Source of the DNA: Anaerocolumna chitinilytica
GTDB lineage: Bacteria; Bacillota; Clostridia; Lachnospirales; Lachnospiraceae
Assembly: GCF_014218355.1 (NCBI RefSeq)
Contig: NZ_AP023368.1
Location: 5,457,501-5,521,500, forward strand
Direction: 5' to 3'
DNA length: 64,000 nucleotides
Shown here piece by piece: positions 35,513-62,008 of the stretch. Position numbers and translations under genes: made by a program. Under the pieces are notes generated by a model, which was not told the origin of the DNA, did no database searches, and was given only the letters and a program-made list of their open reading frames with translations. Within the stretch, counting starts at the first letter, position 1. The number at the start of each line of letters is the position of its first letter.

Positions 35513-36391
35513 TTAGTTCTCTTCGAAAGTATATAACTCTTCTTCTATCTCAACATTCTTTAAGAGGCGGATAAAGTATATCAGGCTTGCCGCTATAACA
35601 ACTGCACTAGCAACAAATAGCAATCCTCCTGAGACCGGATTAAGCAGTACACTATCTGAAAGGATGTAACCTAGAAAAATTCCGCTTAGATTAACGGACA
35701 TATGAAGGGCAATAGAAGCTTTCAGTGTATTATAAGTGAACCTTACAAGTCCAAAGCAAAGACCGATAGCAAAAGCATAAGTGCCTTGGATGATATTCAT
35801 ATGATAAATTCCAAAAAGAAGTGCCTGCAGGATATTGGCTGCAAAAAAGGGCATAACCCTTTTAGCCTTACCAAGAGTAACACCTCGAAAGATCAGCTCC
35901 TCCGCTATGGGTCCTATGATTCCCACATATAAGAAGGAAGCCAGCGAGTTGCCCATACCAAGCTTCTCCATCAGTTCACCATATCCTTTGAACCAGCCGG
36001 GCTGCCAGTTTGAAATCACAGTTAATACGATGGAAAGCCCAATCTGAAGAAAGATTCCAAGCACTATGATAATCCCTGTCTGTTTTACCGTAAGATGGTT
36101 TGCTGTTACACGGGTATTATCCCCTCTATTAAGGTGCCTCAGCCATAACCCAAATACAATAATTCCAACAATTCCAAATACCGCCGATATCACCATAAGA
36201 AACTGGGGATCCTGCACTTCGGTAACAATATCTAATCCTGCATTGGATAGATCTGCTCCGTCCCGGGAAGCCAGTTGAAACATTCTTACTACGGAATAAG
36301 CAATTCCAATCCAAGCAGCTCCTAATACCTGTATAGCTAACGCCAACAAAAGCGGCAGTACTGTTCCCAAATATTTACCTGCTTTATTCAT
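35513..36391 (-). CDS. CPBP-family intramembrane metalloprotease (copy 1)
   Basis: 292 residues, about seven TM helices. The CPBP/Abi motifs are visible: EELIFRG (EExxxR), FGIYH (FxxxH) and HMSVN (HxxxN) in the last third. Such proteins process CAAX-like substrates or, in Gram-positives, confer bacteriocin self-immunity (for example PlnI and SkkI). It sits at the downstream edge of the peptide secretion island; ATG follows AAAGGAG. The 104-bp gap to the next upstream gene leaves operon membership open. Confidence 0.92.
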   Translation of the reverse strand: MNKAGKYLGTVLPLLLALAIQVLGAAWIGIAYSVVRMFQLASRDGADLSNAGLDIVTEVQDPQFLMVISAVFGIVGIIVFGLWLRHLNRGDNTRVTANHLTVKQTGIIIVLGIFLQIGLSIVLTVISNWQPGWFKGYGELMEKLGMGNSLASFLYVGIIGPIAEELIFRGVTLGKAKRVMPFFAANILQALLFGIYHMNIIQGTYAFAIGLCFGLVRFTYNTLKASIALHMSVNLSGIFLGYILSDSVLLNPVSGGLLFVASAVVIAASLIYFIRLLKNVEIEEELYTFEEN

Positions 36392-36495
36392 ATAATCTCC
36401 TTTATGTCAAGTCTGTCATTGTGTTCTTAACTCACTTTACCATGCTGAATGTCTTTATGCAAGGTTATCTCTCAGTAGCATTTAATATTTAAGAA

Positions 36496-37119
36496 TTAAT
36501 AAACCTTAGGTCCGTTATTTTTTTCATATGCTATGAGGAAAGCTTCTACCATTTTCTTGGAAGCATTTATTTTATAATTTTTATTTTCTGTAATAATCTC
36601 AAGAATAGATACATTATTGTTGAATTTTTTTATGTTATAATTGAGGATGTTTTTATATTCTATTTCTTTGTTAGATATTACAACCCGGCCAATATCCTCA
36701 TTACTATAAATGCATAGAAAGCATATAGAGAATGAGAAAAAATATAAGCAACTACAACTAAGGCCAAACTGTGTGAGCCACGCAAGGTCCTTACGAATAA
36801 AACAGAGCAAACAAATAACTAGATAGAGCACCAAAGTTATTATCTGAAATACTCTTACCCCTATTTCTGGTATATTATAATAGCGATGGATCTTATAATT
36901 TTTTAGCATGATATATTTTAAGTCTCTTACACTATAATATACCAAAGTAAATGTACAAAAGAAAAAGCAAGCCATAATAAGCCCGTAGCATAATATAGAA
37001 AAATCTACTCCCTGCCCATTATTTTTTAGTAACACAATAAGTATACTAAGAAGTACAGATACAATAATAATTATTATAAGCTTTTTATTGCTCATGAGAG
37101 AAAATACCTCCGTTTTCAT
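36496..37119 (-). CDS. Four-TM membrane protein of the peptide secretion operon
   Basis: Up to 207 residues; four hydrophobic helices in the first 140 (IIIIIIVSVLLSILIVLL; LIMACFFFCTFTLVYYSV; VFQIITLVLYLVICLL; LYFFSFSICFLCIY) and a soluble Ile/Asn/Lys-rich C-terminal domain. No family recognised. It begins 2 bp after the TolC-like gene, so it is certainly in that operon; a second start 24 bp in has GGAGG. An accessory or immunity role is inference from position. Confidence 0.75.
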   Translation of the reverse strand: MKTEVFSLMSNKKLIIIIIVSVLLSILIVLLKNNGQGVDFSILCYGLIMACFFFCTFTLVYYSVRDLKYIMLKNYKIHRYYNIPEIGVRVFQIITLVLYLVICLLCFIRKDLAWLTQFGLSCSCLYFFSFSICFLCIYSNEDIGRVVISNKEIEYKNILNYNIKKFNNNVSILEIITENKNYKINASKKMVEAFLIAYEKNNGPKVY

Positions 37120-37121
37120 CT

Positions 37122-38522
37122 TTACTCATCTTCCAGATAAATTTTATTTTCCAGAATATCTTCCCACATCAGTACCTCCATGCAGCTGCTATAATATTTC
37201 AAACTAACAGACTGCCTGTCCAGATAAGCCTTTTTCACCTCCAATTTGGAAGCCTTCTTATATTTTTGACTCTCTTCGATGGCTTTACATTTGTTATCGG
37301 CTATCTCTAGATTCTGCTTTATAGATGTCATTTTTCGAAAGGAATCATCATAAAAATTTATTGCTTTACGTACAAAGTTCCCTATCTTTCTTTGCAGTTG
37401 AACTTCCTGCAATTGATAACTCTTTATCGTAAGTCCAATCTGGTTCTGATAAGCAGTGTTTGTAATCCCCCCCGATGTAAGGTAATTTTGATAACTGGTT
37501 TCCATATTCTTAAGTTGTAAATAAGAAGGAGTACTTTGTACAAAGGAATTTATCTCCGTTGCTACCGTATAGTTCTTGTGGTTTAATACTATATTATATT
37601 GGATTGTATCACTTTCAGAAAGTCCTGTCTCTTGTTTAATATAAGAATTCAGCAGATTATAATTCTCCTGATTCTGGGCGGATACCCGGGTGTTTTCCGA
37701 GAGATTTAAGGAAATCTCGTCAACTTGCCCTTTGGTGGAATAACCATATTGATATTTAATTTCTTCAATTTGTTTCTGTAAATTAATATACTCCTGATTC
37801 AGTGAATCGTATTTCATCTGCTCCTGACCTACCATCAGGTTAAGACAGTTTTGCAAAAAACTATGAAGTACTTTATGTTTCCCATCCTGGGTTAATAAGC
37901 CCTGATAGTCTTTATAGAAGGCAGCAAGGTCCCTGGATAATTTATCATCTGATGCATTTTTAGAAAATGTGGCAGCACTCTGCTGATAGGAAGCTAGTTG
38001 TGCCTCTATAGCATTCAACTGAGCATCGATATCACTGATTTGCATCTGAGAGTCAGGAGTTATTCCTTCTAACTTATTTACGATTGATTCGCCAGGGTTC
38101 TCATTCGTCAATCCTGTATTATCTGAAGCCTCACCTCCTGGCCCCTCTAATTCAACACTTTGTGCTGCTGCTGTATTTCTTGCATTTAGAAGGCTTTCCC
38201 TTGCCAGGTTGAGTTCCTGTATCCTAGCTTGAATAGTAAGATAATCAGACTGGGCCTTTGAATAAGTTTCATCTGCGGTTAATGCTTTTGCTGCTTCAAG
38301 CTGATAGCCTGTAAGATTTATCTGATAATCCATTCCATAAATCTCATACCGGCTCATAACATCCTTCCAGTCGTACACCTTTCCGCTTCCTTGCAGAACA
38401 TAGATTATACTTTCTGCAGAAGCCTTCATAACAAAAAGACAGCTGTAAAGGCTAATAACAAGGAAGAAAACCAATAGCCATTTTCTATAACCTATACCAT
38501 TATTACAATTCTCACTTCTCAT
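37122..38522 (-). CDS. Secreted TolC-like coiled-coil protein
   Basis: 466 residues with a signal peptide or anchor helix (about 15-36, LLVFFLVISLYSCLFVMKAS-A) followed by long helical repeats. The layout suggests the internal duplication of TolC-type proteins: two halves each with A/L/Q-rich helices (AKALTADETYSKAQSDYLTI; later KASKLEVKKAYLDRQSVSLK) and the turn motif YGYSTKGQVDEISLNLSEN resembling YxxGxxsxxdvxxaxxxL. It lies 14 bp after the HlyD-like adaptor. TolC partners HlyD-type adaptors in Gram-negatives; here it would work at or beyond the single membrane. The assignment is by eye. Confidence 0.72.
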   Translation of the reverse strand: MRSENCNNGIGYRKWLLVFFLVISLYSCLFVMKASAESIIYVLQGSGKVYDWKDVMSRYEIYGMDYQINLTGYQLEAAKALTADETYSKAQSDYLTIQARIQELNLARESLLNARNTAAAQSVELEGPGGEASDNTGLTNENPGESIVNKLEGITPDSQMQISDIDAQLNAIEAQLASYQQSAATFSKNASDDKLSRDLAAFYKDYQGLLTQDGKHKVLHSFLQNCLNLMVGQEQMKYDSLNQEYINLQKQIEEIKYQYGYSTKGQVDEISLNLSENTRVSAQNQENYNLLNSYIKQETGLSESDTIQYNIVLNHKNYTVATEINSFVQSTPSYLQLKNMETSYQNYLTSGGITNTAYQNQIGLTIKSYQLQEVQLQRKIGNFVRKAINFYDDSFRKMTSIKQNLEIADNKCKAIEESQKYKKASKLEVKKAYLDRQSVSLKYYSSCMEVLMWEDILENKIYLEDE

Positions 38523-38536
38523 CTGTGTTTATTCCC

Positions 38537-40408
38537 CTAATCCTTTAGGAAGTTCATCTTTTCCAGTACAAACTTAAGAATACGTTTATTTTCTGTTATC
38601 ATCTGCGCCTGACAGGACATACCTGCTTTCAAAGATAACTCTTTTCCTTTGGAATCATACAGAGATTTTTCATGAATCGAGGCTTCTACCAAATAATAGC
38701 CTCCCCCATTCTTCTCATCTACTTTAAGGTCCTTGGATATCTTTGTTATTCTACCGTTTAGGTAGCCATATTCACTGTTGGGCAGGGCATAGACATTAAA
38801 TTTTACCCGCATTCCTTCCTTTAGTTTACCAATATCCTTATTGCTGACATAAATATTAGCCTTATAGCTGCTCTCATTATCCGGCATAATCGTCATAACT
38901 GTAACACCAGCATTCAGGGTATCACCTTTTACCAGCTCCACACTACTGTTCGCAACTCCGGACCTTGCTGCTTTTACAGTAGCTTCCTTTATCTGAAAAT
39001 CAAGTTTTTCAATGGCTGCTGTAAGCTCATCTTTTTTATCTACGTCTTCTTTTATATTATTAAGGGTAGTACTAATCTCTGTGTTTATATATTCTTCCAA
39101 AGAGGCATCTGTCTTTTTGTTTGCTCCCGTCCGTAGGGACTTGTCATTTTCCAATTTCAGATTGTTTAGATTATCGGTAAGTGATAAGGTGCTATCCTTT
39201 AAAGCAGTAATTTTACTTCGCAGATCCACCAGATAATTTAGTCTAAAATTGAGTAAAGCGTTTCCTCTTTCCTCTTCATTCTTAGAGAGAAGCGCTCCCT
39301 TCGTCAAAGTGCTTTTCTTTGACAGTTTTAGTTCCTCTATACTTTTCTCTGTTTCAGTGATGCTGTTTTTAATGTCCTTTAAACAGGAGGTCTTATATGC
39401 ATCAATTGCTCTCCTTGCATCCTGAACCTTGGTTTCTGATTGTTCAACCTCCCATTCAGTAACTGCAAGCCCCTCAAGAGCTTTATTAATCTCATAGTCC
39501 TCTTTTGCCTGTTTATAACCGGCACTCAGTTCTTCCTGCTTACTCTGATATTCATCGTACTGCAGACTGTAGCTGCTGCTGTCTGTAAACAGGTCTTTCC
39601 CCTGTTCTATACTTTGCATCAATAGATTTAAGCCATGCTTTCTCTCGGAATAATAATCCAGAGAGTCCACCACACCCTCTGCAGTGGTCGATAACTGTAT
39701 CTCTAATTTGGCACTGTCATATTTTTGAACCAGGGTTTTATAATCACTCAGATACTTGGTATAGAGGTCGTAGTATTCCTTCTCACTGCCTGAATTCAAG
39801 AAGGGATTTTTCTCCGTGTTAACTGCTTCTTCAAGCTTCTCAAGATTATGCAGCCGTTCCTTTTCACTTGCTATCTGCTTCTTGATAGAGACTTGATTCA
39901 GATGTCTCGCTTTTTCTTTATAATCGACATCCTTTTCAGATATGATATAATTTATGTAAAAACTACGGTATTTTAAGTAGTATTCTTCTTCGCTCTTAGG
40001 GAAATAATTCTTGCCATCTTCAACAGACTTCTTATAGGTCTGCAGATTGTCGATCTCCTTTGTAAGTTCTGTCAGTTGTGCTTCATAGTAAGTCTTTTGC
40101 TTTAACAGGTCTTCATGTTCGATAACATAAAGGATGTCTCCCTTTGTTACCTTCTGTCCATCCTGAATATTAACCTTCTTAATCGTTCCGGCAAAATTAT
40201 TTACAACTGTTGCCACCTGATTATTGGGGCGCAGAATCCCTTCAGACTTCACAACAACGTCTATCCTGCCAAAATACATCCAGATAAGTGCAATGACAAA
40301 AATTCCAAGCACAAGATAAACAAACAGGGAAAGAAATATATTTGGCTTTGACTCGTACACTTCCCTGCTGTCTGACATTTCATTTAAATTCAGTATAATT
40401 GGTTTCAT
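38537..40408 (-). CDS. HlyD-family membrane fusion protein of a peptide exporter
   Basis: 623 residues: one TM (about 25-47, LSLFVYLVLGIFVIALIWMY), a biotinyl-lipoyl half (SEGILRPNNQ ... GTIKKVNIQDGQKVTKGDIL), an unusually long coiled-coil hairpin (about 100-480) and a C-terminal HlyD barrel (NKDIGKLKEGMRVKFNVYAL). Adaptors of this kind assist C39-type ABC exporters (ComB, LagE, MesE). First gene of the operon adaptor - TolC-like - four-TM protein, with a LytTR-type repeat 87 bp upstream of its start. Confidence 0.92.
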   Translation of the reverse strand: MKPIILNLNEMSDSREVYESKPNIFLSLFVYLVLGIFVIALIWMYFGRIDVVVKSEGILRPNNQVATVVNNFAGTIKKVNIQDGQKVTKGDILYVIEHEDLLKQKTYYEAQLTELTKEIDNLQTYKKSVEDGKNYFPKSEEEYYLKYRSFYINYIISEKDVDYKEKARHLNQVSIKKQIASEKERLHNLEKLEEAVNTEKNPFLNSGSEKEYYDLYTKYLSDYKTLVQKYDSAKLEIQLSTTAEGVVDSLDYYSERKHGLNLLMQSIEQGKDLFTDSSSYSLQYDEYQSKQEELSAGYKQAKEDYEINKALEGLAVTEWEVEQSETKVQDARRAIDAYKTSCLKDIKNSITETEKSIEELKLSKKSTLTKGALLSKNEEERGNALLNFRLNYLVDLRSKITALKDSTLSLTDNLNNLKLENDKSLRTGANKKTDASLEEYINTEISTTLNNIKEDVDKKDELTAAIEKLDFQIKEATVKAARSGVANSSVELVKGDTLNAGVTVMTIMPDNESSYKANIYVSNKDIGKLKEGMRVKFNVYALPNSEYGYLNGRITKISKDLKVDEKNGGGYYLVEASIHEKSLYDSKGKELSLKAGMSCQAQMITENKRILKFVLEKMNFLKD

Positions 40409-40494
40409 TGGTAAACTCTTTCTGCTTTTGTGTTATTGAGCGCATAACTATATGAGGAATTTAACATTTTCTTAGACGCCAGACAATATGAATG

Positions 40495-40525
40495 TGCTAT
40501 TTGGTAAGAAATGCGTGGTGATTGG
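40495..40525 (-). promoter_or_regulatory. LytTR-type direct repeat, site A (adaptor operon)
   Basis: Plus-strand halves TGCTATTTGG (40495) and TGGTGATTGG (40516), period exactly 21 bp. On the minus strand ATTGT (40487 to 40483) follows at the position of a -10 region. Confidence 0.8.
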
Positions 40526-40542
40526 CAGAATTGATATCTATT

Positions 40543-40836
40543 TTATAGAGAAAGGATGAAGACAATAGCCAGAATAATAAAAATAACGGCTGATATGATA
40601 GCCATAAATTTAGCTGTTCTATTTTCGGCAGCCTTACCCTCAAATACTTCTCTCTTTCTTCTGATGATGAAAAAAGTGAGCAACTGCAGAATAAAGGCAA
40701 CGCCATAACATACCTGCGGTATAGGCAGTAGTTTAGTTAGACCGGAGGTTTTTTCTATTGTATTGATTATAAGTCCAACTGCTAAGAAAATGCATGATAC
40801 GATGGATAATACCTGATATCTCATAAGCTTTTTCAT
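40543..40836 (-). CDS. Small three-TM membrane protein, possible immunity protein
   Basis: 97 residues, three helices (VLSIVSCIFLAVGLII; VCYGVAFILQLLTFFI; FMAIISAVIFIILAIVFIL) with a basic loop RRKREVFEGKAAENR. No family recognised. It is 26 bp downstream of a CPBP protease gene and therefore probably co-expressed. Small multi-TM proteins beside peptide exporters often provide immunity; that is inference. Confidence 0.75.
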   Translation of the reverse strand: MKKLMRYQVLSIVSCIFLAVGLIINTIEKTSGLTKLLPIPQVCYGVAFILQLLTFFIIRRKREVFEGKAAENRTAKFMAIISAVIFIILAIVFILSL

Positions 40837-40862
40837 AAGATTAACCTAACGTGTAATATGTA

Positions 40863-41615
40863 TTATACGCCTTTCTGTTTCATATTGATTTTTTTTCGTT
40901 TCGCCTTGGGATATTTCGTAATAATCAGTAGAAAACCTATTGTTACTGCTAAAAATGTGAAGCCCAACAGAAACTGTCCGATAACACTATAGTTAACTAT
41001 ATTAAACTTATAATATACCTCCAGAACCACCAGCAGATTATTGAGTGAATGCATTAGCATACAACAATAAATATTGAATTCTTTATAAACAATTCCCAAA
41101 ATAAAGGCAAAGAACGTAAGAAAAATAAAAGCATATATATCAAAATGCAAAACTCCAAATATAATAGCCTGAATCATATTGGCGACTAGAAAGGAGTATT
41201 TTCTGTTAAGTTGTTTCAGAAGAATACCTCTGAATAATAATTCCTCTGAAATAGGTGCAAAAATTACGGCTGAAACTATCTCTATCCCCTTAAAGTGGTA
41301 CTGGGAGCTATGACCTGGAAACAAAAATGATAACAAGTTTTCTTCGGAAATACTATAACAAACTAAAATCATGCAGGTAAAGAATATCATATATGTAATC
41401 TGTTTAAAGGAATATTTGCGCTTGCTATTTAACTGTATTTTCGTATGTTCTTTATGCAGAATATATATCAATGTGGAATATAGCAAAACAGTAATAATAG
41501 CAGCTATACCAGTCTTCACATACATGGTGAATAAACTATCGATTATTATAACCGCAAAAAACCATATAGAGCTCTTTTTTATTGATTCCATATTTATCTT
41601 TTCCTGTGAATTCAT
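40863..41615 (-). CDS. CPBP-family intramembrane metalloprotease (copy 2)
   Basis: 250 residues, seven or so TM helices. Motifs EELLFRG (EExxxR), FGVLH (FxxxH) and HSLNN (HxxxN) are intact. It lies inside the peptide island between the exporter and the adaptor operons. CPBP proteins of lactic acid bacteria plantaricin and sakacin loci protect producers from their own bacteriocins; a similar job is likely here. The ATG follows TTGGAGCC. Confidence 0.9.
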   Translation of the reverse strand: MNSQEKINMESIKKSSIWFFAVIIIDSLFTMYVKTGIAAIITVLLYSTLIYILHKEHTKIQLNSKRKYSFKQITYMIFFTCMILVCYSISEENLLSFLFPGHSSQYHFKGIEIVSAVIFAPISEELLFRGILLKQLNRKYSFLVANMIQAIIFGVLHFDIYAFIFLTFFAFILGIVYKEFNIYCCMLMHSLNNLLVVLEVYYKFNIVNYSVIGQFLLGFTFLAVTIGFLLIITKYPKAKRKKINMKQKGV

Positions 41616-41721
41616 TATGGCTCCAATCTAATTCCATACCATTTGTAATTATCAAATCTGTTGAAAACTACCAAGAGTGAAAAAACGATAATGTTTGAAC
41701 ATTGCTTTTCTGTACATTACG

Positions 41722-42162
41722 TTATTTCATTTTATTTAGATATTTCAAATAAAGTATTCTTGGAGCTTTTATCTCAATGGCATCCTTGTGCATGAAAACG
41801 CTGACATTACCATAAAACTTCGTATTTCGAGATGTTGATGTATAAATAAATTCTCCACTACTTTTATCTGTTGTTTTATCTCCACAACTATAACCTGCTT
41901 TATTTAATATGTTTGAAACCATCTCTATTGTCTTTGCTCTATCTAAACTGGTATACAAAACCGATTCTTGCTTTGCTAAATATGAGCCAATTCCTCCCAT
42001 TCCCAAACATGTGATAAACAGAATAAGCAATATGATACATAGTTCTATAATATGAGGTTTTTGTTTACTAAATATAAGCAAAAGGATGATATAGAAAGTA
42101 AATATAGTACCCAATATTTCAAAGTAATAAAGAGAAACCTTTTTAAATGTATCAATATTCAT
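41722..42162 (-). CDS. Two-TM membrane protein of the peptide island
   Basis: 146 residues, ATG after GAGGAGG. Two adjacent TM helices (about 15-32, YFEILGTIFTFYIILLLI, and 38-58, IIELCIILLILFITCLGMGG) followed by a soluble domain of about 85 residues (TIEMVSNILNKAGYSCGDK ... FMHKDAIEIKAPRILYLKYL). No known family. A short sequence matching its 5' end occurs again near 43495. Confidence 0.7.
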   Translation of the reverse strand: MNIDTFKKVSLYYFEILGTIFTFYIILLLIFSKQKPHIIELCIILLILFITCLGMGGIGSYLAKQESVLYTSLDRAKTIEMVSNILNKAGYSCGDKTTDKSSGEFIYTSTSRNTKFYGNVSVFMHKDAIEIKAPRILYLKYLNKMK

Positions 42163-42237
42163 GCTTAATACCTCCTCAAGACTTTTATAATGACTCCATT
42201 TATGTCCTTCTCGGTAAATTCATGATGGCTTCTTATT

Positions 42238-42861
42238 CTAGTCAATTTGCATTTCTATGTAGTTTCTAAATTGTGGTATGGAGTTCTTAACCTTATAAAA
42301 ATATCTCCTGAAAAGAAATATGCCAATGAGTAAAACAGAGACTGTTATCAAAAGTAATATCACTGTATTCTTTATTCTCGAAATTACATATATTGTTAAA
42401 AACTGAGGAAAAAGAAAACCGCTTATATTGTATCCTATATGTACAAAAATAGGCGCAATGACTGTTTGATATTTATAATAAACGTAGCCCAGAATTAATC
42501 CAAGAGCGAAAGTATAAATAGACTGGATCGGATTATAATGGGATATTCCAAATATGACTGCCTGTACTAAACATGCCCATATGTATGGCAAAAATCGTTT
42601 TAAGACCCGGAATAAAACTCCCCTGTAAAGCAATTCTTCAATAGCAGGCCCAACAAGACATATAAAGGCTGCTCTTCCCCAAAAGCTACCCCCTTCTGTT
42701 ATTTTAGAAATTTTTTCAGCATACGCAGTCAGCATATGTGCGTTTATTATATATAGTATGTTCAAGGACATCGTAATACTTAAGCCAAAGCCGATTCCTA
42801 ATAAAATTAAGTATACGGCCGATTTCGTTTTAAATAGCTCTGCAATTTTATCCCTTTTCAT
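42238..42861 (-). CDS. CPBP-family intramembrane metalloprotease (copy 3)
   Basis: 207 residues, about six TM helices, with EELLYRG, FGISH and HIGYN as the three CPBP motifs. The region from EELLYRG onward closely follows copy 1 at 35513 (compare LVQAVIFGISHYNPIQSIYTF with NILQALLFGIYHMNIIQGTY), so the two probably share an origin. The ATG follows CAGAAGGAAATGA. Likely immunity or peptide-processing role. Confidence 0.9.
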   Translation of the reverse strand: MKRDKIAELFKTKSAVYLILLGIGFGLSITMSLNILYIINAHMLTAYAEKISKITEGGSFWGRAAFICLVGPAIEELLYRGVLFRVLKRFLPYIWACLVQAVIFGISHYNPIQSIYTFALGLILGYVYYKYQTVIAPIFVHIGYNISGFLFPQFLTIYVISRIKNTVILLLITVSVLLIGIFLFRRYFYKVKNSIPQFRNYIEMQID

Positions 42862-42934
42862 TCATTTCCTTCTGTGGCAATACGCTTTTCTTATTGTGAT
42901 TGTCAGAACTATGTTTGTCCTGCGATTCATAAGT

Positions 42935-43126
42935 TTAATTGGATTTCTTATCCTTTATATAATTTTTAACCATAATTACACCAGATAAAATTAAAAGGAC
43001 AAGCCCAATTGGAGCAATGATTATATTTACATAAATGTTATCAGATGGAATACATATTGTCGTCACCAACATTCCGATAAAAAAAATCAGATACCCGTCG
43101 GAAAAAGCTTTTTTTAAATTAATCAT
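42935..43126 (-). CDS. Small two-TM membrane protein
   Basis: 63 residues from the ATG after TTGGAGGAAGGG (an in-frame TTG 12 bp earlier overlaps that site). Two helices: GYLIFFIGMLVTTICIP and INVIIAPIGLVLLILSGVIM-like. No family recognised. Same strand and spacing as the neighbouring island genes. Confidence 0.65.
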   Translation of the reverse strand: MINLKKAFSDGYLIFFIGMLVTTICIPSDNIYVNIIIAPIGLVLLILSGVIMVKNYIKDKKSN

Positions 43127-43199
43127 CCCTTCCTCCAATCAATCATAAAATTGAATATCTTTCAAGGCAAGATGAGCATTACATAAACATAATAACTCT

Positions 43200-43442
43200 T
43201 CAAGTATTGCTATGTCCATTTTTTTCTTTTCTATAATAAGGAATTCTAATTATTACCAAGACTATAAAAAAAATATTGTATATTGTATAAAAACTGTAGT
43301 AATATAAAGTTATTTCTTCGCCTATGTTGAAAATTGTAAAAATTCCCGAAACTACAGTAGTCATAAATAAGCTTATAAAAGCGTATATTTTTAATGGTTT
43401 ATTAAAAAAGGCTACTTTACTCTCTTTATCTGTTTCCATCAT
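43200..43442 (-). CDS. Small two-TM membrane protein
   Basis: 80 residues after GGGAGGATGATAT; two adjacent ATGs are possible. Helices at about 18-38 (IYAFISLFMTTVVSGIFTIF) and 46-65 (YYYSFYTIYNIFFIVLVII), with a basic hydrophilic tail. No family recognised. It is the first of a run of small membrane genes downstream of the exporter; an accessory or immunity role is inference. Confidence 0.65.
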   Translation of the reverse strand: MMETDKESKVAFFNKPLKIYAFISLFMTTVVSGIFTIFNIGEEITLYYYSFYTIYNIFFIVLVIIRIPYYRKEKNGHSNT

Positions 43443-43685
43443 ATATCATCCTCCCTACTTAAGGTCTTATAACATAAATATAAAAGGTGAACGTATATTT
43501 CAAAGTAATAGAGAGATATGATACTATACTTTTATTTTATTTATTCTTTCTAGTCTTTTTATAGGCCTTGGATGTATGTTATGACTTACAATCTGTTTTT
43601 TATTCATATTATCAATTATCATTAAAGCCTCAATTAGACAATCTTATTCAATAATATTTCAATATGTTTTCTCCTTATGATTTAA

Positions 43686-45875
43686 TCAACCTACCTGCTG
43701 CCTCCAAAGCAATGCATACTGCCCTTCTCTATCCAGCAGTCCCTGATGACTTCCGTCCTCAATGACCTTGCCCTTCTCCATTACATAAATCCTGTCGCAC
43801 CTTCTAATCGTACTTAACCTGTGGGCTATAATTATCGTCGTCATATCCTTGCTGTAGTCTTCAATTGTATTCTCAATTGCTCTCTCTGTAATAGAATCCA
43901 GATTACTGGTAGCTTCATCAAGTATTAATATATCCGGCTTTTTTAAAATTGCCCTAGCTATGGTAAGGCGCTGCCTCTGTCCTCCCGATAAATTGGAGCC
44001 GTTCTCCTCCAGTCTCGTTTCATACCTTAAAGGCAGCTCGTTTATAAAATCATGGGCCTGTGCCTTCTTGGAGGCTTCCATTACCTCTTCTGTTGTAACA
44101 TTCTCCAATCCCAGCGTCAGATTATCCATAATACTTCCGCTGAAAAGAAAGGTTTCCTGGGGTATATAGGCTATTCTCTCCCTCAAGGCTTCCATCTGAA
44201 TATCCTTGATGTTATAGCCGTTAATTAAAATCTCACCAGTTTCCACTTGATAGAGATTTAATAATAATTTCGATAGTGTTGTCTTACCGGAACCGCTCTC
44301 CCCCACCAGTGCTATCTTCTCTCCTTGTCTTATACATATCTGAACTCCCTCCAGAACCGGTCTTCTGGTTCCATAACGAAAAGTAATATTCTTAAATTCT
44401 ATATCCCCTTTTAAATTCAACGGACTTATCTTCTTATTTTCACCTTCTGTTCTTTCCGGTTCCAGGTCAAGTATTTCACCAAGTCTGTCTGCTGCAACCA
44501 CAGCTGTCTGCATCTGGGGCTGTAAATTTATTAGATTTTTCACCGGGTCAAGAAAATACGCCAAAAGAGAATTAAAGGCTATTAGCTGCCCGATAGAGAT
44601 ATTTCCTTTGATAACCTGGTAGCCACCCACCCACAGAATGACAATGCCGCCGGTTAATTCGGTGAAACCTACGAGAGAACCTTGGAGATTACTTACCCAA
44701 CTGAGCCGGAATACACTTTTTAGAAGCCTTATGAACTTCTTTTCTGTTTCCAGTTCTACTTTTCTCTCAGCATTGTAGGCTTTCACTGTCTGAATACCGT
44801 TTAAGGATTCGACCATGTAGGAGGTCAGCTGTGCATTGTCTTCCATCTGGGCCTGGTTTAACTTCTTATACCATCTATTAAAACTCAAAACTATTATGAA
44901 GTATAAGACAATCACGATAGCAGTTACGCCAAACATATAGGCATTCTGCATATACAGTATTACTCCTCCGGCTACTGCCATCAGAGTATCTATCATAATG
45001 GTAAGGGTAGCCCCTGATATGGCATCTCTTACCTTGGAGGCATCGTTAAATCGGGAGATTATCTCTCCCACTTTTCTGGTTCCGAAAAAATTCATGGGAA
45101 GCTTCAATACATGTCTGTAGTACCCAAGCAGCAGTGCAATATCAAGCTTCTGACTCAAATACAACATCAAATGAGAACGAAAAGCCGATAAAACCACCTT
45201 AAACAGATTTAATAAAATTACTCCGATTGACAATATATGAAGGGTTTTAACCAATCCTGCCGATAACACATCATCCAATAGCACTTTAAAATAAAAGGAA
45301 CCTAGTATCCCCATGGCCGTTATTAAAAGAGATGCAATAAACACATGGCATAAAAGACGCTTTTGCGGCAAAAGCAGATATAAGAAGCGTTCAAACAACC
45401 CCTGGGTCTCATCTCCCTTTTCAAAATTCTGTCCGGGTACCATAAGAATAAGGATTCCCGTCCATTGATAGTGGGGTGCCTTTCCCTCTGCCGCTCCTTC
45501 GCCCATAAATTCTCCCGGCGTTAATTTGACGATTCCTTTACCCGGGTCCGCAAGTATAATTTCTTTGGCTGTTATTTTATGTATCACGACATAATGAAGC
45601 AGGGTACCATCCACTACCACATGGGCAATACAAGGCAGCGGGAACTCGGAAAAAAGGGCATTCTTATCACCTTTTACCCCTTTCGCACTAAAGCCGAGCT
45701 GCTCTGCTGCTTTTATTACACCATAAGCGTTGGTTCCCTGCTTATCTGTACCGGCAACTTCTCTTATCCTTGTAATGGATGTTTTAAAACCATACTGTTT
45801 TGAGATGGTCGCCAGACAGGCTGCACCGCAATCTGTCATATCATGTTGTTTGATACAGTAGTATTTACGAAACAT
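43686..45875 (-). CDS. C39-peptidase ABC exporter for double-glycine peptides
   Basis: 729 residues from MFRKYYCIKQHDMTDCGAAC (AGAGGA upstream); a start 51 bp earlier is possible. Domains: N-terminal C39 peptidase with catalytic Cys16 in DCGAAC, oxyanion Gln10, His in LLHYVVIHK and Asp in ILADPGKG; six-TM permease (about 160-440); ATPase with GESGSGKTTLS, LSGGQRQRLT and ILILDEATSNLD. Such exporters (ComA, LagD, BlpA class) cut after the GG of a leader and export the core peptide. Its substrate is almost certainly the 46053 peptide, whose gene lies just upstream. LytTR-type site B precedes it. Confidence 0.96.
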   Translation of the reverse strand: MFRKYYCIKQHDMTDCGAACLATISKQYGFKTSITRIREVAGTDKQGTNAYGVIKAAEQLGFSAKGVKGDKNALFSEFPLPCIAHVVVDGTLLHYVVIHKITAKEIILADPGKGIVKLTPGEFMGEGAAEGKAPHYQWTGILILMVPGQNFEKGDETQGLFERFLYLLLPQKRLLCHVFIASLLITAMGILGSFYFKVLLDDVLSAGLVKTLHILSIGVILLNLFKVVLSAFRSHLMLYLSQKLDIALLLGYYRHVLKLPMNFFGTRKVGEIISRFNDASKVRDAISGATLTIMIDTLMAVAGGVILYMQNAYMFGVTAIVIVLYFIIVLSFNRWYKKLNQAQMEDNAQLTSYMVESLNGIQTVKAYNAERKVELETEKKFIRLLKSVFRLSWVSNLQGSLVGFTELTGGIVILWVGGYQVIKGNISIGQLIAFNSLLAYFLDPVKNLINLQPQMQTAVVAADRLGEILDLEPERTEGENKKISPLNLKGDIEFKNITFRYGTRRPVLEGVQICIRQGEKIALVGESGSGKTTLSKLLLNLYQVETGEILINGYNIKDIQMEALRERIAYIPQETFLFSGSIMDNLTLGLENVTTEEVMEASKKAQAHDFINELPLRYETRLEENGSNLSGGQRQRLTIARAILKKPDILILDEATSNLDSITERAIENTIEDYSKDMTTIIIAHRLSTIRRCDRIYVMEKGKVIEDGSHQGLLDREGQYALLWRQQVG

Positions 45876-46003
45876 AGATTCCTCTTTTGTTAATGGCAAG
45901 AAATGCTGTTTATAATTCGTATACATTCCAACCTATTTTTACTTTTTAGCTTTATTCACTGACAAAAATTTACCACTTTTTAGGAGTATGTACAATGCAG
46001 ATG

Positions 46004-46034
46004 TGCTATTTGGTAAAAACACCGTGGTAATTGG
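46004..46034 (-). promoter_or_regulatory. LytTR-type direct repeat, site B (exporter)
   Basis: Plus-strand halves TGCTATTTGG (46004) and TGGTAATTGG (46025), period 21 bp. Minus-strand ATTGT (45996 to 45992) lies at the same offset as in sites A and C. Confidence 0.82.
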
Positions 46035-46052
46035 TTACAGTCTGCATATGTA

Positions 46053-46211
46053 TTATTTATCAAAGTATTTAAAAATATCTTTAAATTCCTGGCATACATT
46101 TGTAACAATGACTTTAAAAAAGGCATCTCCCCCCACGGTTTTTTCTAATTCATCTACTTTAAGTTCACATAAATTATCGTTCATCTCAATATTTACTTTT
46201 TTCTTATTCAT
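46053..46211 (-). CDS. Double-glycine leader peptide precursor (pheromone or bacteriocin)
   Basis: A 52-residue gene found on the minus strand, with an excellent site AAAAGGAGG before its ATG. The 28-residue leader ends in VGG and has the consensus residues of C39-cleaved leaders: Leu at -12, Glu at -8, Leu at -7, Gly at -2 and -1 (LKVDELEKTVGG). The predicted mature peptide is 24 residues, DAFFKVIVTNVCQ then EFKDIFKYFDK: aromatic, near-neutral, amphipathic, one Cys. Context (exporter, adaptor, GHKL kinase, LytTR regulator, site C) fits an autoinducing peptide, possibly also antimicrobial. Maturation and function are inferred. Confidence 0.85.
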   Translation of the reverse strand: MNKKKVNIEMNDNLCELKVDELEKTVGGDAFFKVIVTNVCQEFKDIFKYFDK

Positions 46212-46270
46212 CTTTCTACCTCCTTTTAAGTCGAATCTACCACTTTTTTATCACATCAACAATATAGCCG

Positions 46271-46301
46271 TGCTATTCGGTAAATAAACCATGCTATTTG
46301 G
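46271..46301 (-). promoter_or_regulatory. LytTR-type direct repeat, site C (peptide gene)
   Basis: Plus-strand halves TGCTATTCGG (46271) and TGCTATTTGG (46292), period 21 bp, the best-matching pair of the four. It is 60 bp upstream of the peptide gene. Minus-strand ATTGT at 46263 to 46259. Confidence 0.85.
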
Positions 46302-46378
46302 TATGTTATCAGAAAGACTGGTGATAAACATTTTTTTCTAATTAGGATTAAAATAACAATAGGTTTGTGATAAAATAG

Positions 46379-46406
46379 AACTATACATCGAAACTCGATG
46401 ATAGTT
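46379..46406 (+). promoter_or_regulatory. Hairpin in the 5' leader of the sensor kinase gene
   Basis: AACTAT, bulged A, CATCGA, loop AAC, TCGATG, ATAGTT: a 12-bp stem lying just after a weak -10 (TAAAAT at 46370) and 24 bases before the kinase ATG. No U-run follows, so it is not a terminator. Confidence 0.55.
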
Positions 46407-46430
46407 CTTATGTTACTTAGGAGATATTTT

Positions 46431-47747
46431 ATGAATAGTAATTTTGTTTCTGTAAGCATTGATATTACTTATAATTTATTGGCTTTGTTAGTTTTAGATA
46501 AATACTGTGATTATTTTCTGACACGTTCTCAATCAGATAAACTGTATATAAAACGGCTGTATTTTTATATCCCGGTACAAATCTTACTAAGCATTCTATC
46601 AATCGATACCGTTATCTTTACTACTTTGCTGTTTGTAAGTTATTTATTGTACATCAACCTTTTTTACATTACAGAATTTAAAAAAGGCCTTCTCTTTGTA
46701 CTCAAGTTTTTTCTCATTTTTTATGGTTTATCTGGAATTGCTTTTATCGTAATATCTTTTTTTATGGATTTTTTATCAGGCCTGATTGGCTTGTTTGATA
46801 ATAATTTTTATCAAAACCTTAAAGGAATCATAGTTAATACTCTGGCTTATATAATATCCTGCTTCTATCTGCATCATAAAAAGCTGAAGCACCAACCAGT
46901 TAACAATCCCTATAAGAGGTATGTTTATCTAATCTTAGGATTAATTATTTTTGTATTAAGTACTTTTATAATCTATATCTATACTTTAAACTCTTCAAAA
47001 GAAGCATTGGAGAATATTGTTACAATCATTTTCCTAATAAATATTCTAATGATTGTACTAATCCTATCCATCTACGAAAAAATCGTTGACTCTCTTCAGG
47101 AAGCAGCCCTGAAACAATTACAGCAGCAAAAATATGAACTTGCACAGAGTTATTATGAAGAACTAAGTGAGAAATCCAAGCAACTGGTGTCTCTTCGACA
47201 TGACTTTAAAAATCATCTGAATATTATTGCAGGGCGCTTGGAGCAAAAGGATTATACAGAGGCTCTTTCCTATCTGGAAAGGATTACAGCTGTTACGAAA
47301 TCTGCCGGAGATTTGATTATTACGAATAATGCTACTGTCTCTGCTATTCTTCAATCAAAAAAAGTAGAGTGTGAAAGAAAAGGCATAGGGTTTACTTATA
47401 CCGCTGCCTTTGAGAAAATATATAAATTAACAGATATGGATTTTACGATAATACTTGGCAATATACTGGATAATGCCATTGAAGCACAGGAAGAGGTGAG
47501 GGCAGGTAAATACCTAGCCGTTTCCATCACACAGGCAGATACCTATCTTGTTATCCAGTGTGAAAACCCCTATCTGGCAAGTCCTATGAAGAAGAACGGA
47601 CGCCTGGTAACCTCTAAAAAAGATAGCGAATTTCATGGGGTAGGGCTATTAAACGTCTCTGATGTATGCGAAAGGTACGGCGGTGACTTCCATTATACCT
47701 ATGATAATTCCATCTTTACGGTCAGAATTATGCTTCCTAATTATTAG
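46431..47747 (+). CDS. GHKL-type sensor histidine kinase (AgrC/ComD-like)
   Basis: 438 residues from the ATG after TAGGAGATATTTT. The N-terminal 215 residues form about six TM helices, the peptide-sensing module of HPK10 kinases. The kinase core has the H-box SLRHDFKNHLNII, the N-box ILGNILDNAIEAQE and a late G-box GVGLLNV. It should sense the exported 46053 peptide and phosphorylate the LytTR regulator. Unlike most Agr/Com systems it is transcribed toward its regulator, with the two stop codons overlapping by 4 bp. Confidence 0.93.
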   Translation: MNSNFVSVSIDITYNLLALLVLDKYCDYFLTRSQSDKLYIKRLYFYIPVQILLSILSIDTVIFTTLLFVSYLLYINLFYITEFKKGLLFVLKFFLIFYGLSGIAFIVISFFMDFLSGLIGLFDNNFYQNLKGIIVNTLAYIISCFYLHHKKLKHQPVNNPYKRYVYLILGLIIFVLSTFIIYIYTLNSSKEALENIVTIIFLINILMIVLILSIYEKIVDSLQEAALKQLQQQKYELAQSYYEELSEKSKQLVSLRHDFKNHLNIIAGRLEQKDYTEALSYLERITAVTKSAGDLIITNNATVSAILQSKKVECERKGIGFTYTAAFEKIYKLTDMDFTIILGNILDNAIEAQEEVRAGKYLAVSITQADTYLVIQCENPYLASPMKKNGRLVTSKKDSEFHGVGLLNVSDVCERYGGDFHYTYDNSIFTVRIMLPNY

Positions 47748-48499
47748 AATGTCTGCTCCTGGAGCTTTACATATATCCTATTCATAAATCGTTCCTTGAT
47801 GTCCTTATAATACTTTCTGCTGACCGGTACTTCTATGTAGTCTGCTAAGACTATGGTGTTCTTACCGACTTCCTGTATCATGTCAAAGTTCACAATATAA
47901 CCTTGGTGAACATAGCAGAATTTATTAACGTCCAATTTCTCGTATAATTGGGACAGTGTCTCATAGCAGGCATATTCATTATCTCCGGTGCGGATAATAC
48001 TTGTATTGCGTTTCTTTTCTATATATTTTATCTTCGTTATTTCGATGTATACATCTGTGTTTTTAATTTTAACTTCCAGATATCTCTTTCTGGCACTGAT
48101 TTGGTCTCTCTTAAAGTCAATGGCTGCCGTAGCAAGGGACATAACTTTCTTAAGCTTTGTATAATCCACCGGCTTTACCAGGTAATTAAGAGCATTTACC
48201 TCAAAAGCCCCCAGCGCATAATTATCAAAGCTGGTTGCAAATATGATTATGACATCCTCGTCCTTTTTTCTAATCTCTCTAGCGGTCTCCATACCGGATA
48301 ACCCACCCATTTCAATGTCCAGCACCAGGATATGAAAAATGGTTTCCTCATACTGAGACAGCAATTTTTCTCCGCTGCTGAATCTGCATATATCCAGCTT
48401 GTTTCCGCTTTCATTTTCATAGGTCTTTAACAAATTGCTCAGTTCATCCTGATAATAGATTTCATCATCGCATATGGCGATTCGATATTGACTTAGCAT
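47744..48499 (-). CDS. LytTR-family response regulator (AgrA/ComE-like)
   Basis: 251 residues from MLSQYRIAICDDE (a start 18 bp earlier is possible). Receiver domain with the acidic pair CDDE, phospho-Asp in LVLDIEMGGLSG and Lys in NYLVKPVD; C-terminal LytTR DNA-binding domain (RYLEVKIKNTDVYIEITKI ... FCYVHQGYIVNFDMIQEV). LytTR proteins bind direct repeats spaced two helical turns apart, exactly the form of sites A-D; site D lies 94 bp upstream of its own start, implying autoregulation. Confidence 0.95.
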   Translation of the reverse strand: MLSQYRIAICDDEIYYQDELSNLLKTYENESGNKLDICRFSSGEKLLSQYEETIFHILVLDIEMGGLSGMETAREIRKKDEDVIIIFATSFDNYALGAFEVNALNYLVKPVDYTKLKKVMSLATAAIDFKRDQISARKRYLEVKIKNTDVYIEITKIKYIEKKRNTSIIRTGDNEYACYETLSQLYEKLDVNKFCYVHQGYIVNFDMIQEVGKNTIVLADYIEVPVSRKYYKDIKERFMNRIYVKLQEQTF

Positions 48500-48592
48500 A
48501 TCCCTTATCCTTTTCATTATGGAGTTTCTTTCAAATGGTATCTCTTTATGACTATATTTTAATAGGAAGCTGAAACCAAATCAACCCCTGTA

Positions 48593-48623
48593 TGCTATTC
48601 TGCATAAAAACAGTGGTATTTAG
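48593..48623 (-). promoter_or_regulatory. LytTR-type direct repeat, site D (regulator gene)
   Basis: Plus-strand halves TGCTATTCTG (48593) and TGGTATTTAG (48614), period 21 bp. It is the most diverged copy and lacks the ATTGT at the usual offset. Confidence 0.65.
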
Positions 48624-48649
48624 CCAAATAATGAAACCGCTCCATATAA

Positions 48650-48684
48650 AAAGATGCTCACTTAGTGAAACTGCGAGCATCTTT
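48650..48684 (-). terminator. Terminator of the OYE-family gene
   Basis: Perfect 10-bp stem AAAGATGCTC/GAGCATCTTT with T-rich flank on the minus strand (TTTTTATATGG). Confidence 0.75.
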
Positions 48685-48797
48685 CTTATAAACTTACCTA
48701 TTCTTATAAAACATATTATTATTAACTTACCTATATGAACCAGGCCCAAAACTTTGCTGATTACCTATCGGGAAAAGCTGACTCTTTGGTATTTATC

Positions 48798-49871
48798 TTA
48801 GTTGTTAAAGATACAATTTGTCTCTTTTCCGAAGCACTTCGAACAGGATATACACTTTGCCGGTGTCCTATCTCCGCTCAACCAGCGGTTAACCAGCTCC
48901 GGCTCTCGTATAAATGGCCGGCAAAGGGATATATATTCTATGTTCGTTTTTGCTATTACCTCTTCTATCTTGGTAAAATCCCGGTTTCCGCCTACTAATA
49001 TAACCGGAATATCAATTTCTTCTGCAATTTGTGCAGCATACTGTTTGAAATAGGATTCCGTTTCAGGAGTGATTTTTCTAATAGTCCCCTCATTCACCCT
49101 CGCTGATGGAATACCGCCGCTGATTTCAATCGCTGTTACCCCGGTATCCTGCAGCATTTTACAGACATGTCTGCAATCTTCAAAGGTAAGCCCGCCTTCC
49201 ATGAAGTCATCACAATTGACTTTCACAAGCACCGGATATTCTTCTCCTACTACTGCTCTTACCCGCTGTATGGTTTCCACTACAGCTCTTGCTCTGTTTT
49301 CTATGGTACCGCCGTATTCATCGGTTCTTCGATTGTAATAAGGGGTAAGAAATCTGCTCAGAAGATATCCATGAGCAACATGGATTTGCACTCCGTCAAA
49401 CCCTGCCTTTTTTGCTCTAGCGGCTCCATTGGCAAAAGCCTCCTCCATCTTATGAATATCTTCTATGGTCATTTCTTTTGGTACTGTCTGATATACCAGA
49501 TCAGTTACTTCACTTGGACCCCATAATTCACCCTCTAAGGTACTTTTATTCTGTGCCCCGTTGCACACAAGCTGTACTATGATATTTGTATCATAGCTAT
49601 GGATAATATCAGTCAAATTCTTATATTCTTCAATAAAAGAGTCGTCATAAATTCCCATTTGACCAGGAACTAACTTTTCTGCATCTGTAACATTTGTTAA
49701 TCCGGTTATAATAGTGCCAACTCCGCCTTTTGCAAGGTTTTCATAGAGTTGAAGCAACTTTTGTGTGGTATGTCCTTTTTCATCTGCTCTTCCGTCATGG
49801 GTTGCCGAGCGGATTATTCTGTTTTTCATCCGCATACCTGATAGTTCAGTGGTATCAAATAATGTTCTCAT
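48798..49871 (-). CDS. NADH:flavin oxidoreductase, Old Yellow Enzyme family
   Basis: FMN-dependent TIM-barrel oxidoreductase, 357 residues. Typical segments: NRIIRSATHDGRADEKGH, MGIYDDSF, FDGVQIHVAHGYLLSRFL, NRRTDEYGGTIENRAR and VGGNRDF. After the barrel it retains a cysteine cluster (CISCSKC ... NC) like that of 2,4-dienoyl-CoA reductases but ends there, with no second flavin/NAD domain. Substrate unknown. Monocistronic with own terminator. Confidence 0.92.
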   Translation of the reverse strand: MRTLFDTTELSGMRMKNRIIRSATHDGRADEKGHTTQKLLQLYENLAKGGVGTIITGLTNVTDAEKLVPGQMGIYDDSFIEEYKNLTDIIHSYDTNIIVQLVCNGAQNKSTLEGELWGPSEVTDLVYQTVPKEMTIEDIHKMEEAFANGAARAKKAGFDGVQIHVAHGYLLSRFLTPYYNRRTDEYGGTIENRARAVVETIQRVRAVVGEEYPVLVKVNCDDFMEGGLTFEDCRHVCKMLQDTGVTAIEISGGIPSARVNEGTIRKITPETESYFKQYAAQIAEEIDIPVILVGGNRDFTKIEEVIAKTNIEYISLCRPFIREPELVNRWLSGDRTPAKCISCSKCFGKETNCIFNN

Positions 49872-55341: not shown

Positions 55342-55559
55342 AAAAAAGTCCTTCCTCCACAAGGGACCGAAAGACCTCGGCGGTACCACCCTAATTAACT
55401 GTTCCCAGTTCACTTTGACACCGTTAACGCCGGTTCTACGCCATACTTTCATACAGTGCTCCAAGGTAGGTTCTATAAGTTTATCCTGAGAATCTCTCAC
55501 CAATCTATTCTCTCTCTGGGAGGACAAATATTATATACTATTCCTTATCATTGCTTTGT
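55342..55559 (-). promoter_or_regulatory. T-box riboswitch leader of proS
   Basis: Minus strand carries the perfect T-box core AGGGTGGTACCGCC (about 55379-55393), followed by a terminator hairpin (GGTCCCTTG / AGGAAGGACT) and TTTTTTT (55341-55368). A plausible Pro specifier CCT occurs in AGAACCTACC (about 55466-55475). Uncharged tRNA-Pro would allow readthrough. Confidence 0.93.
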
Positions 55560-55565
55560 ATATTG

Positions 55566-61874: not shown

Positions 61875-62008
61875 AAGTCCTGCTAAGTGGACTTGAAAAA
61901 TACATCAAATCCTCTTATTGTTCGATTACTCGCTCAGGTTGGCACCTTCCGCAAAGGGGGTTGCCGTGACTTCATAGAGCCTTTACTCTCCGTCACTCTG
62001 AATAAGAG
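61875..62008 (-). promoter_or_regulatory. SAM-I (S-box) riboswitch of metK
   Basis: Minus strand: P1 arms CTCTTATT/AATAAGAG (62001-62008 and 61912-61919), with the core GAAGTCACGGCAACC, GGAAGGTGCCAACCTG between, all hallmarks of the S-box. It is followed by a terminator hairpin AAGTCC/GGACTT (61875-61894) and TTTTTTT. High SAM should terminate transcription. Confidence 0.96.

Follow-up and report, generated by a model that had tools for sequence, protein, structure and literature searches.

Genes and promoters of the locus

We analysed a window of 64,000 nucleotides (nt; G000:C1:5457501-5521500), the whole stretch considered here, from the complete 5.62-Mb genome of Anaerocolumna chitinilytica, in which one locus encodes a double-glycine (GG) peptide, a C39-peptidase ABC exporter, a HlyD-family adaptor and a secreted protein predicted to adopt the TolC fold, together with a LytTR response regulator and a GHKL sensor kinase. 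All genes named for this locus in an original prediction were found at their positions by the open reading frame (ORF) list and by Pfam/NCBIfam searches; the extent it gave, 36496..48623, needs a small correction, the last promoter box actually running to 48624. Read along the minus strand, the locus encodes the regulator, the kinase (itself on the opposite, plus strand), the GG peptide, the C39 exporter, six small membrane proteins (two of them CPBP), HlyD, a 466-amino-acid (aa) secreted protein and a 207-aa membrane protein, with 14 bp between the HlyD and 466-aa genes and 2 bp between the 466-aa and 207-aa genes. The central elements are, by window position and strand:

47744..48517, minus: LytTR response regulator (Pfam Response_reg and LytTR; likely ribosome-site start 48499)
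46398..47747, plus: polytopic GHKL (HPK10-like) sensor kinase, divergent from the peptide gene (HATPase_c_5 83.7 bits, SPOB_a)
46053..46211, minus: GG peptide precursor of 52 aa, presumed pheromone (28-aa leader ending VGG, 24-aa mature part)
43686..45926, minus: C39-peptidase ABC exporter (Peptidase_C39, ABC_membrane, ABC_tran; likely ribosome-site start 45875)
38537..40408, minus: HlyD-family adaptor, 623 aa (HlyD_3 58.9 bits, cut-off 22.2; Biotin_lipoyl_2)
37122..38522, minus: secreted protein of 466 aa with predicted TolC fold and no predicted barrel strands, signal peptide ending ASA (AlphaFold, Foldseek/VIA)
48592..48624, minus: LytTR box before the regulator; -35 TTGATT 48584-48579, -10 TAAAAT 48561-48556
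46270..46302, minus: LytTR box before the peptide gene; -35 TTGTTG 46262-46257, -10 TAGATT 46239-46234
46003..46035, minus: LytTR box before the C39 exporter; -35 TTGTAC 45995-45990, -10 TAAATT 45972-45967
40494..40526, minus: LytTR box before the HlyD and TolC-fold genes; -35 TTGTCT 40486-40481, -10 TAAATT 40463-40458

The exporter scored 706 bits against TIGR01193 (cut-off 524), while the adaptor stayed below the cut-off of the bacteriocin secretion accessory model TIGR01000 (125.9 against 258.85 bits). A simple hydropathy count gave the kinase about seven hydrophobic segments, and regulator orthologues of 77% identity occur in G011, G012 and G014, three other genomes of the genus (G numbers denote genomes and L numbers loci). 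The features of a three-component GG-peptide system are thus present, namely a GG-leader precursor, a dedicated C39 exporter, a polytopic GHKL kinase with a LytTR regulator, and paired repeats of 21-bp period upstream of the -35 element. With boxes ahead of four units, this bears out the autoinducing type of circuit that had been predicted, as well as its host, a relative of the Clostridia, and a GG-peptide circuit controlled by LytTR boxes is very probably real.

Each of the four boxes consists of two ACCAAATAGCAC-like 12-mers separated by 9 bp. A degenerate pattern derived from these repeats, which therefore match it by construction, found at up to three mismatches one further site in the whole 5.62-Mb genome (two mismatches) and none in the reversed control, so that the repeats of the original prediction are both real and rare. 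This fifth box lies ~135 kb from the locus, ahead of the gene of a 54-aa membrane protein (G000:C1:5365604-5365765; L024:9602-9766(-)) for which no credible homologue was found in the genus (best non-self E 0.07). In all five boxes of this genome the -35 is followed by a 17-nt spacer and then by TAAATT, TAGATT or TAAAAT.

Within the genus, boxes precede the peptide gene in G011, G012, G014 and G004, the regulator gene in G011, G012 and G014, and the C39 gene in G011. The pattern search over 15 genus genomes was near background (32 matches at up to three mismatches, 22 in the reversed control), and we used the matches inside the locus, our fifth site and an orphan box in G004, and dropped G002 C36 and G011 C122 (two mismatches each). 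The orphan, L109:6337-6369(-), is perfect (C37, 0 mismatches) and has a -35, with no convincing gene within 400 nt downstream; a small RNA or an unannotated peptide possibly lies behind it. A matrix built from 14 boxes, the orphan included, scored 34.8, 30.7 and 30.7 in G176 and 39.3, 37.3, 33.1 and 26.2 in G345, held-out loci of two other genera, compared with at most 10.8 in ten random sequences of 20 kb and with 16.5 for the highest stray score in real loci (L013). Searching 397 genomes of the family Lachnospiraceae for the box alone, at up to two mismatches, gave ten sites in five genomes (two in our own, one each in G022 and G176, four in G180, two in G345) and none in the reversed control. 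In G022, boxes stand ahead of a regulator homologue (44%) and ahead of a GG peptide that adjoins the kinase and is followed by a shortened C39 frame. In G180, one stands ahead of a regulator homologue (37%) and one at a contig end behind its kinase. Others in G180, at L152:3667, L153:7639 and L153:9052, precede genes of secreted proteins, one of them behind another C39/HlyD pair, and the regulon may include surface proteins. Some boxes of G345 and G176 lie ahead of further GG-leader peptides; of two G345 peptides tested, both narrowly miss the class IIb cut-off and one passes TIGR01847, a short leader model.

TTG played no part in finding the boxes; in a scan of 13 loci it stands at +7 in 28/28 boxes with scores above 24, and three or more at no other offset, although these boxes are partly related by descent and the independent units are nearer five genera. 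ComCDE and Blp share with our locus a GG pheromone, a C39 exporter with adaptor, a polytopic kinase, a LytTR regulator and tandem repeats of 21-bp period directly upstream of the -35. The same likeness holds for Pln, and the window promoters equal in arrangement those of PlnC/PlnD, the PlnC sites being given in PMC2714321 as two 9-bp repeats with a 12-bp spacer, upstream of -35/-10. What differs from all three systems is the repeat sequence (ACCAAATAGCAC as opposed to TACGTTAAT), the host, which belongs to the Lachnospiraceae and not to the lactic acid bacteria, and the extra TolC-fold subunit. Searches of one open-access library turned up no account of such GG-pheromone signalling in Lachnospiraceae.

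The GG peptide and the cargo

A leader scan of 36391-48900 returned the 52-aa precursor as the only GG-leader ORF with a ribosome site; the scan misses some precursors, having recovered one of two bacteriocin-like ones in L012 and two of three in L023 when run on relatives as a control. Among 5.8 billion proteins the peptide has one homologue besides the window's own copy, P0010, which, read from an internal Met, has the same residue at 23/24 positions of the mature part and at 17/28 of the leader (p 0.003). When this pair was pooled with the peptides of G012 and G014, leaders differed at 15/56 and mature parts at 2/45 positions (p 0.003). Conservation of the peptide ORF and of the repeats, put forward as a check of the original prediction, is borne out, for the former by P0010 and for the latter by boxes in Anaerocolumna and four other genera. 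Peptides at the equivalent position of other loci have different mature parts, as expected of pherotypes. At this position L012 has a peptide (L012:2179-2295) with an intact box, a doubtful cleavage site (EGI) and a short tail, which is perhaps in decay and was left out as a pheromone example.

Between the exporter and the adaptor, and behind the TolC-fold gene, lie the small membrane genes:

43200..43442, minus: small membrane protein, 80 aa, possible immunity protein or cargo (no family above cut-off)
42935..43138, minus: small membrane protein, 63-67 aa (ORF list, hydropathy)
42238..42861, minus: CPBP (Abi/Rce1-like) membrane protease, possible immunity protein (Rce1-like 77.9 bits)
41722..42162, minus: membrane protein, 146 aa, without family match (ORF list, Pfam, hydropathy)
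40863..41615, minus: second CPBP membrane protease (Rce1-like 67.2 bits)
40543..40836, minus: small membrane protein, 97 aa (ORF list, hydropathy)
36496..37119, minus: membrane protein, 207 aa, directly behind the TolC-fold gene

These genes had led the original prediction to propose a built-in immunity, which is a guess from their presence and is not supported here, as no bacteriocin gene was found in the window. They could also belong to an ordinary class IIb bacteriocin locus of the Blp/Pln type, in which the 24-mer would be a bacteriocin, or an inducer as well, and the CPBP and small membrane proteins would confer immunity. CPBP proteins act as immunity proteins in pln loci, and in L012 and L023 the same exporter is accompanied by bacteriocin-like GG peptides, of which one in L023 passes the class IIb model TIGR03949 (26.7 bits, cut-off 21.5). 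In these two loci the exporter's cargo is bacteriocin-like. We nevertheless consider an ordinary bacteriocin locus unlikely: the peptide gene stands between kinase and exporter under its own box, likewise in G012, G014, G022, G176 and G345; G012 and G014 retain it, although the interval from C39 to the shared flank showed neither another GG peptide nor additional membrane genes; and its precursor matches no Pfam/NCBIfam bacteriocin family above cut-off. Quite improbable, in our view, is a decayed or 'cheater' locus that lost its bacteriocin genes and kept the exporter and immunity remnants. The missing GG cargo would agree with such a history, as would a stretch of about 240 bp, from C39 to the first of the small membrane genes, in which no convincing gene was seen, but the large frames and the four promoters are all intact, and a 94%-identical cluster with eight member sequences exists for the TolC-fold protein.

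A 22-bp repeat, 95% identical, occurs at 42114-42135 (near the start of the 146-aa gene) and 43495-43516 (ahead of the 80-aa gene), which suggests shuffling within the membrane-protein block. A further CPBP gene just outside the locus (35513-36391) recurs beside cca in L012, L107 and L108, not in L013, and looks like chromosomal flank rather than locus-specific immunity. A soluble protein of ~150 aa without family recurs beside these exporters in three genera (L012:7411-7863, L023:3968-4438, L060:13607-13966). Elsewhere in the window, a T-box leader (55359-55560(-)) and a SAM riboswitch (61912-62008(-)) are both ordinary.

A secreted protein with a predicted TolC fold

AlphaFold models of the 466-aa protein and of a 30%-identical relative both match outer membrane factors (Foldseek/VIA; 1ek9, 9tg4, 5bun), among which we counted 5azo, 5azp and 5azs, titled Pseudomonas membrane protein and taken by us to belong there. 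The elements of TolC follow the order H1-H2-S1-S2-H3-H4-S3-H5-H6-S4-S5-H7-H8, with H3/H4 and H7/H8 forming the adaptor-facing part. The single-chain models are predicted to have the two-repeat alpha-helical barrel fold of this group and retain long helices where H3/H4 and H7/H8 stand; the four beta strands of each protomer are not reproduced, short strands of 7, 3 and 8 residues in one model and 7, 4 and 9 in the other lying at the N-terminus and between H4 and H5. In the models, S4-S5 is apparently replaced by a loop of 5-6 residues and S1-S2 by a helical hairpin, an assignment made from the order of the elements and not from a residue alignment.

The OEP profile (PF02321) gave weak matches in six of ten family members at E<=1 (best 2.2e-4) and none in the window protein, and searches of Pfam, NCBIfam and PDB sequences with the protein and its family found no TolC relatives, the PDB matches being coiled-coil and fusion-protein noise. 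Comparing the family with one E. coli TolC sequence by hhalign likewise showed no relation (E 0.33). Because the sequence and hhalign comparisons failed, TolC homology rests on the predicted fold and the weak OEP matches of family members, and it is in this form that the "TolC-like" label of the original prediction survives, Pfam being blind to the window protein. Two sets of candidates were discarded: weak TolC-fold profile matches of 14.9-20.2 bits in 8/397 genomes, dropped as coiled-coil noise, and a 44-aa match of an 81-aa L065 protein to the TolC-fold relative, taken as chance.

No Omp85 was found in the host's own genome, in a search with one marker that was positive in 7/14 controls, and the host apparently has a single membrane, a view based on this marker and on taxonomy. 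The window protein thus differs from TolC and other outer membrane factors in its predicted lack of barrel strands as well as in its host. CvaAB-TolC, a Gram-negative tripartite exporter of the type I secretion/peptidase-containing ABC transporter (PCAT) kind, likewise combines a C39-type transporter, a HlyD adaptor and a TolC-fold third gene; here, the outer-membrane marker was not found and the third protein has no predicted barrel. No report of a barrel-less TolC in monoderms, or of such an exporter, was found in the literature searched.

OEP-type partners in Lachnospiraceae are not unique to the C39 locus. OEP proteins at E<=1e-5 occur in 42/397 genomes of the family (31/320 of high quality), and among the matches listed 77/85 begin no earlier than profile position 64. 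These 77 matches omit the first half, in which the strands lie, although a local match may also be short on other grounds; one of four OEP proteins scanned singly matched profile positions 2-187. Twelve OEP regions were taken, of which ten (nine genomes; L175-L184) were inspected and two excluded as suspected contaminants; the OEP genes of G166 and G324, on suspected contaminating contigs, match the whole profile. Two neighbouring OEP-sized genes were present in all ten inspected regions, behind an RND-sized transporter (about 1010-1025 aa) in nine, and Pfam identified HlyD, an AcrB-type RND and two OEP proteins in both regions searched. An RND transporter with two OEP genes makes a tripartite-looking system in presumed monoderms. 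These clusters resemble ours in their OEP-type proteins, their N-terminal signal-like segments and their bacterial family, and differ in that RND replaces the C39 ABC transporter, the OEP genes are two, and no peptide-signalling genes were seen alongside.

Distribution of the exporter and a proposed mechanism

Orthologous C39 exporters (at least 79% identity) occur in 5/15 genus genomes, of which our own, G011 and G004 also encode HlyD together with a relative of the 466-aa protein (3/61 genomes, own included). G012 and G014, two sister species, have a locus at the same chromosomal place, with NUDIX, CPBP and cca genes adjoining, but it holds only regulator, kinase, peptide and C39. Conversely, G091, which belongs to a different genus, combines C39, HlyD and a TolC-fold gene with kinase, regulator and bacteriocin-like peptides and has no such box (best score 10.4). 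The exporter triad is thus no integral part of the circuit; the unusual tripartite-like layout noted in the original prediction is supported. Clear TolC-fold profile matches in the 397 family genomes were confined to our own and G091, and we saw a C39 exporter with an OEP-type partner under pheromone control only here and in the relatives named. The HlyD profile gave 19 matches at E<=1e-20, and all 17 loci examined (every one except our own and G091) have a C39 match, some with broken frames. In 4/4 loci with a TolC-fold gene, this gene lies directly behind a HlyD gene encoding 620-642 aa; in the 17 without such a neighbour HlyD measures 487-552 aa in ten and is shorter or broken (172-397 aa) in six.

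In the reading we favour, at a probability of about 0.6, a three-component peptide quorum-sensing circuit controls a tripartite exporter in a monoderm. The C39 transporter would export the 52-aa precursor, cleaved at VGG, and the GHKL kinase, on sensing the 24-residue peptide, would phosphorylate the LytTR regulator. A regulator dimer would then sit on the two 12-bp repeats, one 21-bp period apart and 7 nt upstream of the -35, and activate, in a positive feedback, the genes of the regulator itself, the peptide and the exporter together with the HlyD/TolC-fold operon, as well as the distant gene of the 54-aa membrane protein. The HlyD adaptor may dock onto the C39 transporter, and the secreted TolC-fold protein, a helical tunnel with no outer-membrane barrel, may cap the adaptor to give a conduit through the cell wall, whose cargo would presumably be bacteriocin-like GG peptides varying between species. 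That the triad forms such a wall-crossing conduit is plausible, though slightly less likely than not.

Several observations, besides the hhalign result and the bases given above for the segment assignment and the single membrane, weigh against this reading. HlyD and the TolC-fold protein are not needed for pheromone export, because G012 and G014 have the circuit without the pair; L055 has a 642-aa HlyD without a TolC-fold neighbour; and none of the 16 testable C39/HlyD loci of other Lachnospiraceae (the L061 contig ends at the locus) had a TolC-fold neighbour by BLAST, which a divergent one could escape. The leader scan, which recovers 3/5 precursors in relatives, revealed no bacteriocin precursor in the window. 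The G012 and G014 peptides, taken alone, show no contrast between leader (4/28 differences) and mature part (1/21; p 0.38). The -10 at 17 nt is missing from the five boxes of G180, with 0-1 matches, and from one of G176, with 0, and the G004 peptide box, with 2, has a weak one.

The 16/16 loci lacking the protein would also suit a different role, in which it is a wall- or membrane-attached helper (a peptidoglycan-binding scaffold, a 'foldase' chaperone cage or a receptor-like immunity factor) that merely kept an ancestral fold. The models, in which no barrel is predicted, point the same way, as do the proposals of two reviews that adaptor hairpins in Gram-positives may form a foldase cage (PMC4446572) and that the YknX adaptor binds peptidoglycan (PMC5985334). 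We hold such a helper to be rather improbable, since the TolC-fold gene adjoins the long HlyD in every locus where it was found and both models keep the helices that face the adaptor in TolC.

Of the tripartite exporter driven by a pheromone circuit, the circuit is of a known kind, and the exporter, composed of C39, HlyD and a TolC-fold protein predicted to lack a barrel, is the new part. More generally, and tentatively, monoderm Clostridia might build three-part exporters from a C39 transporter, as here, or an RND transporter, as elsewhere in the family, with HlyD and a secreted TolC-fold trimer that has a helical crown in place of the barrel, forming a continuous tunnel from the membrane through the cell wall; this exporter would be switched on in Anaerocolumna by a family-wide LytTR pheromone code. 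The role of adaptor proteins in Gram-positives without an outer membrane is described as an open question in the reviews PMC5985334 and PMC4446572. A barrel-less TolC-fold partner encoded beside the adaptor would offer a direct and testable answer, namely that adaptors may form a tunnel that reaches the wall or crosses it, and the box with its fixed -35 spacing would provide a sequence code for reading pheromones, regulators and cargo in some Lachnospiraceae.

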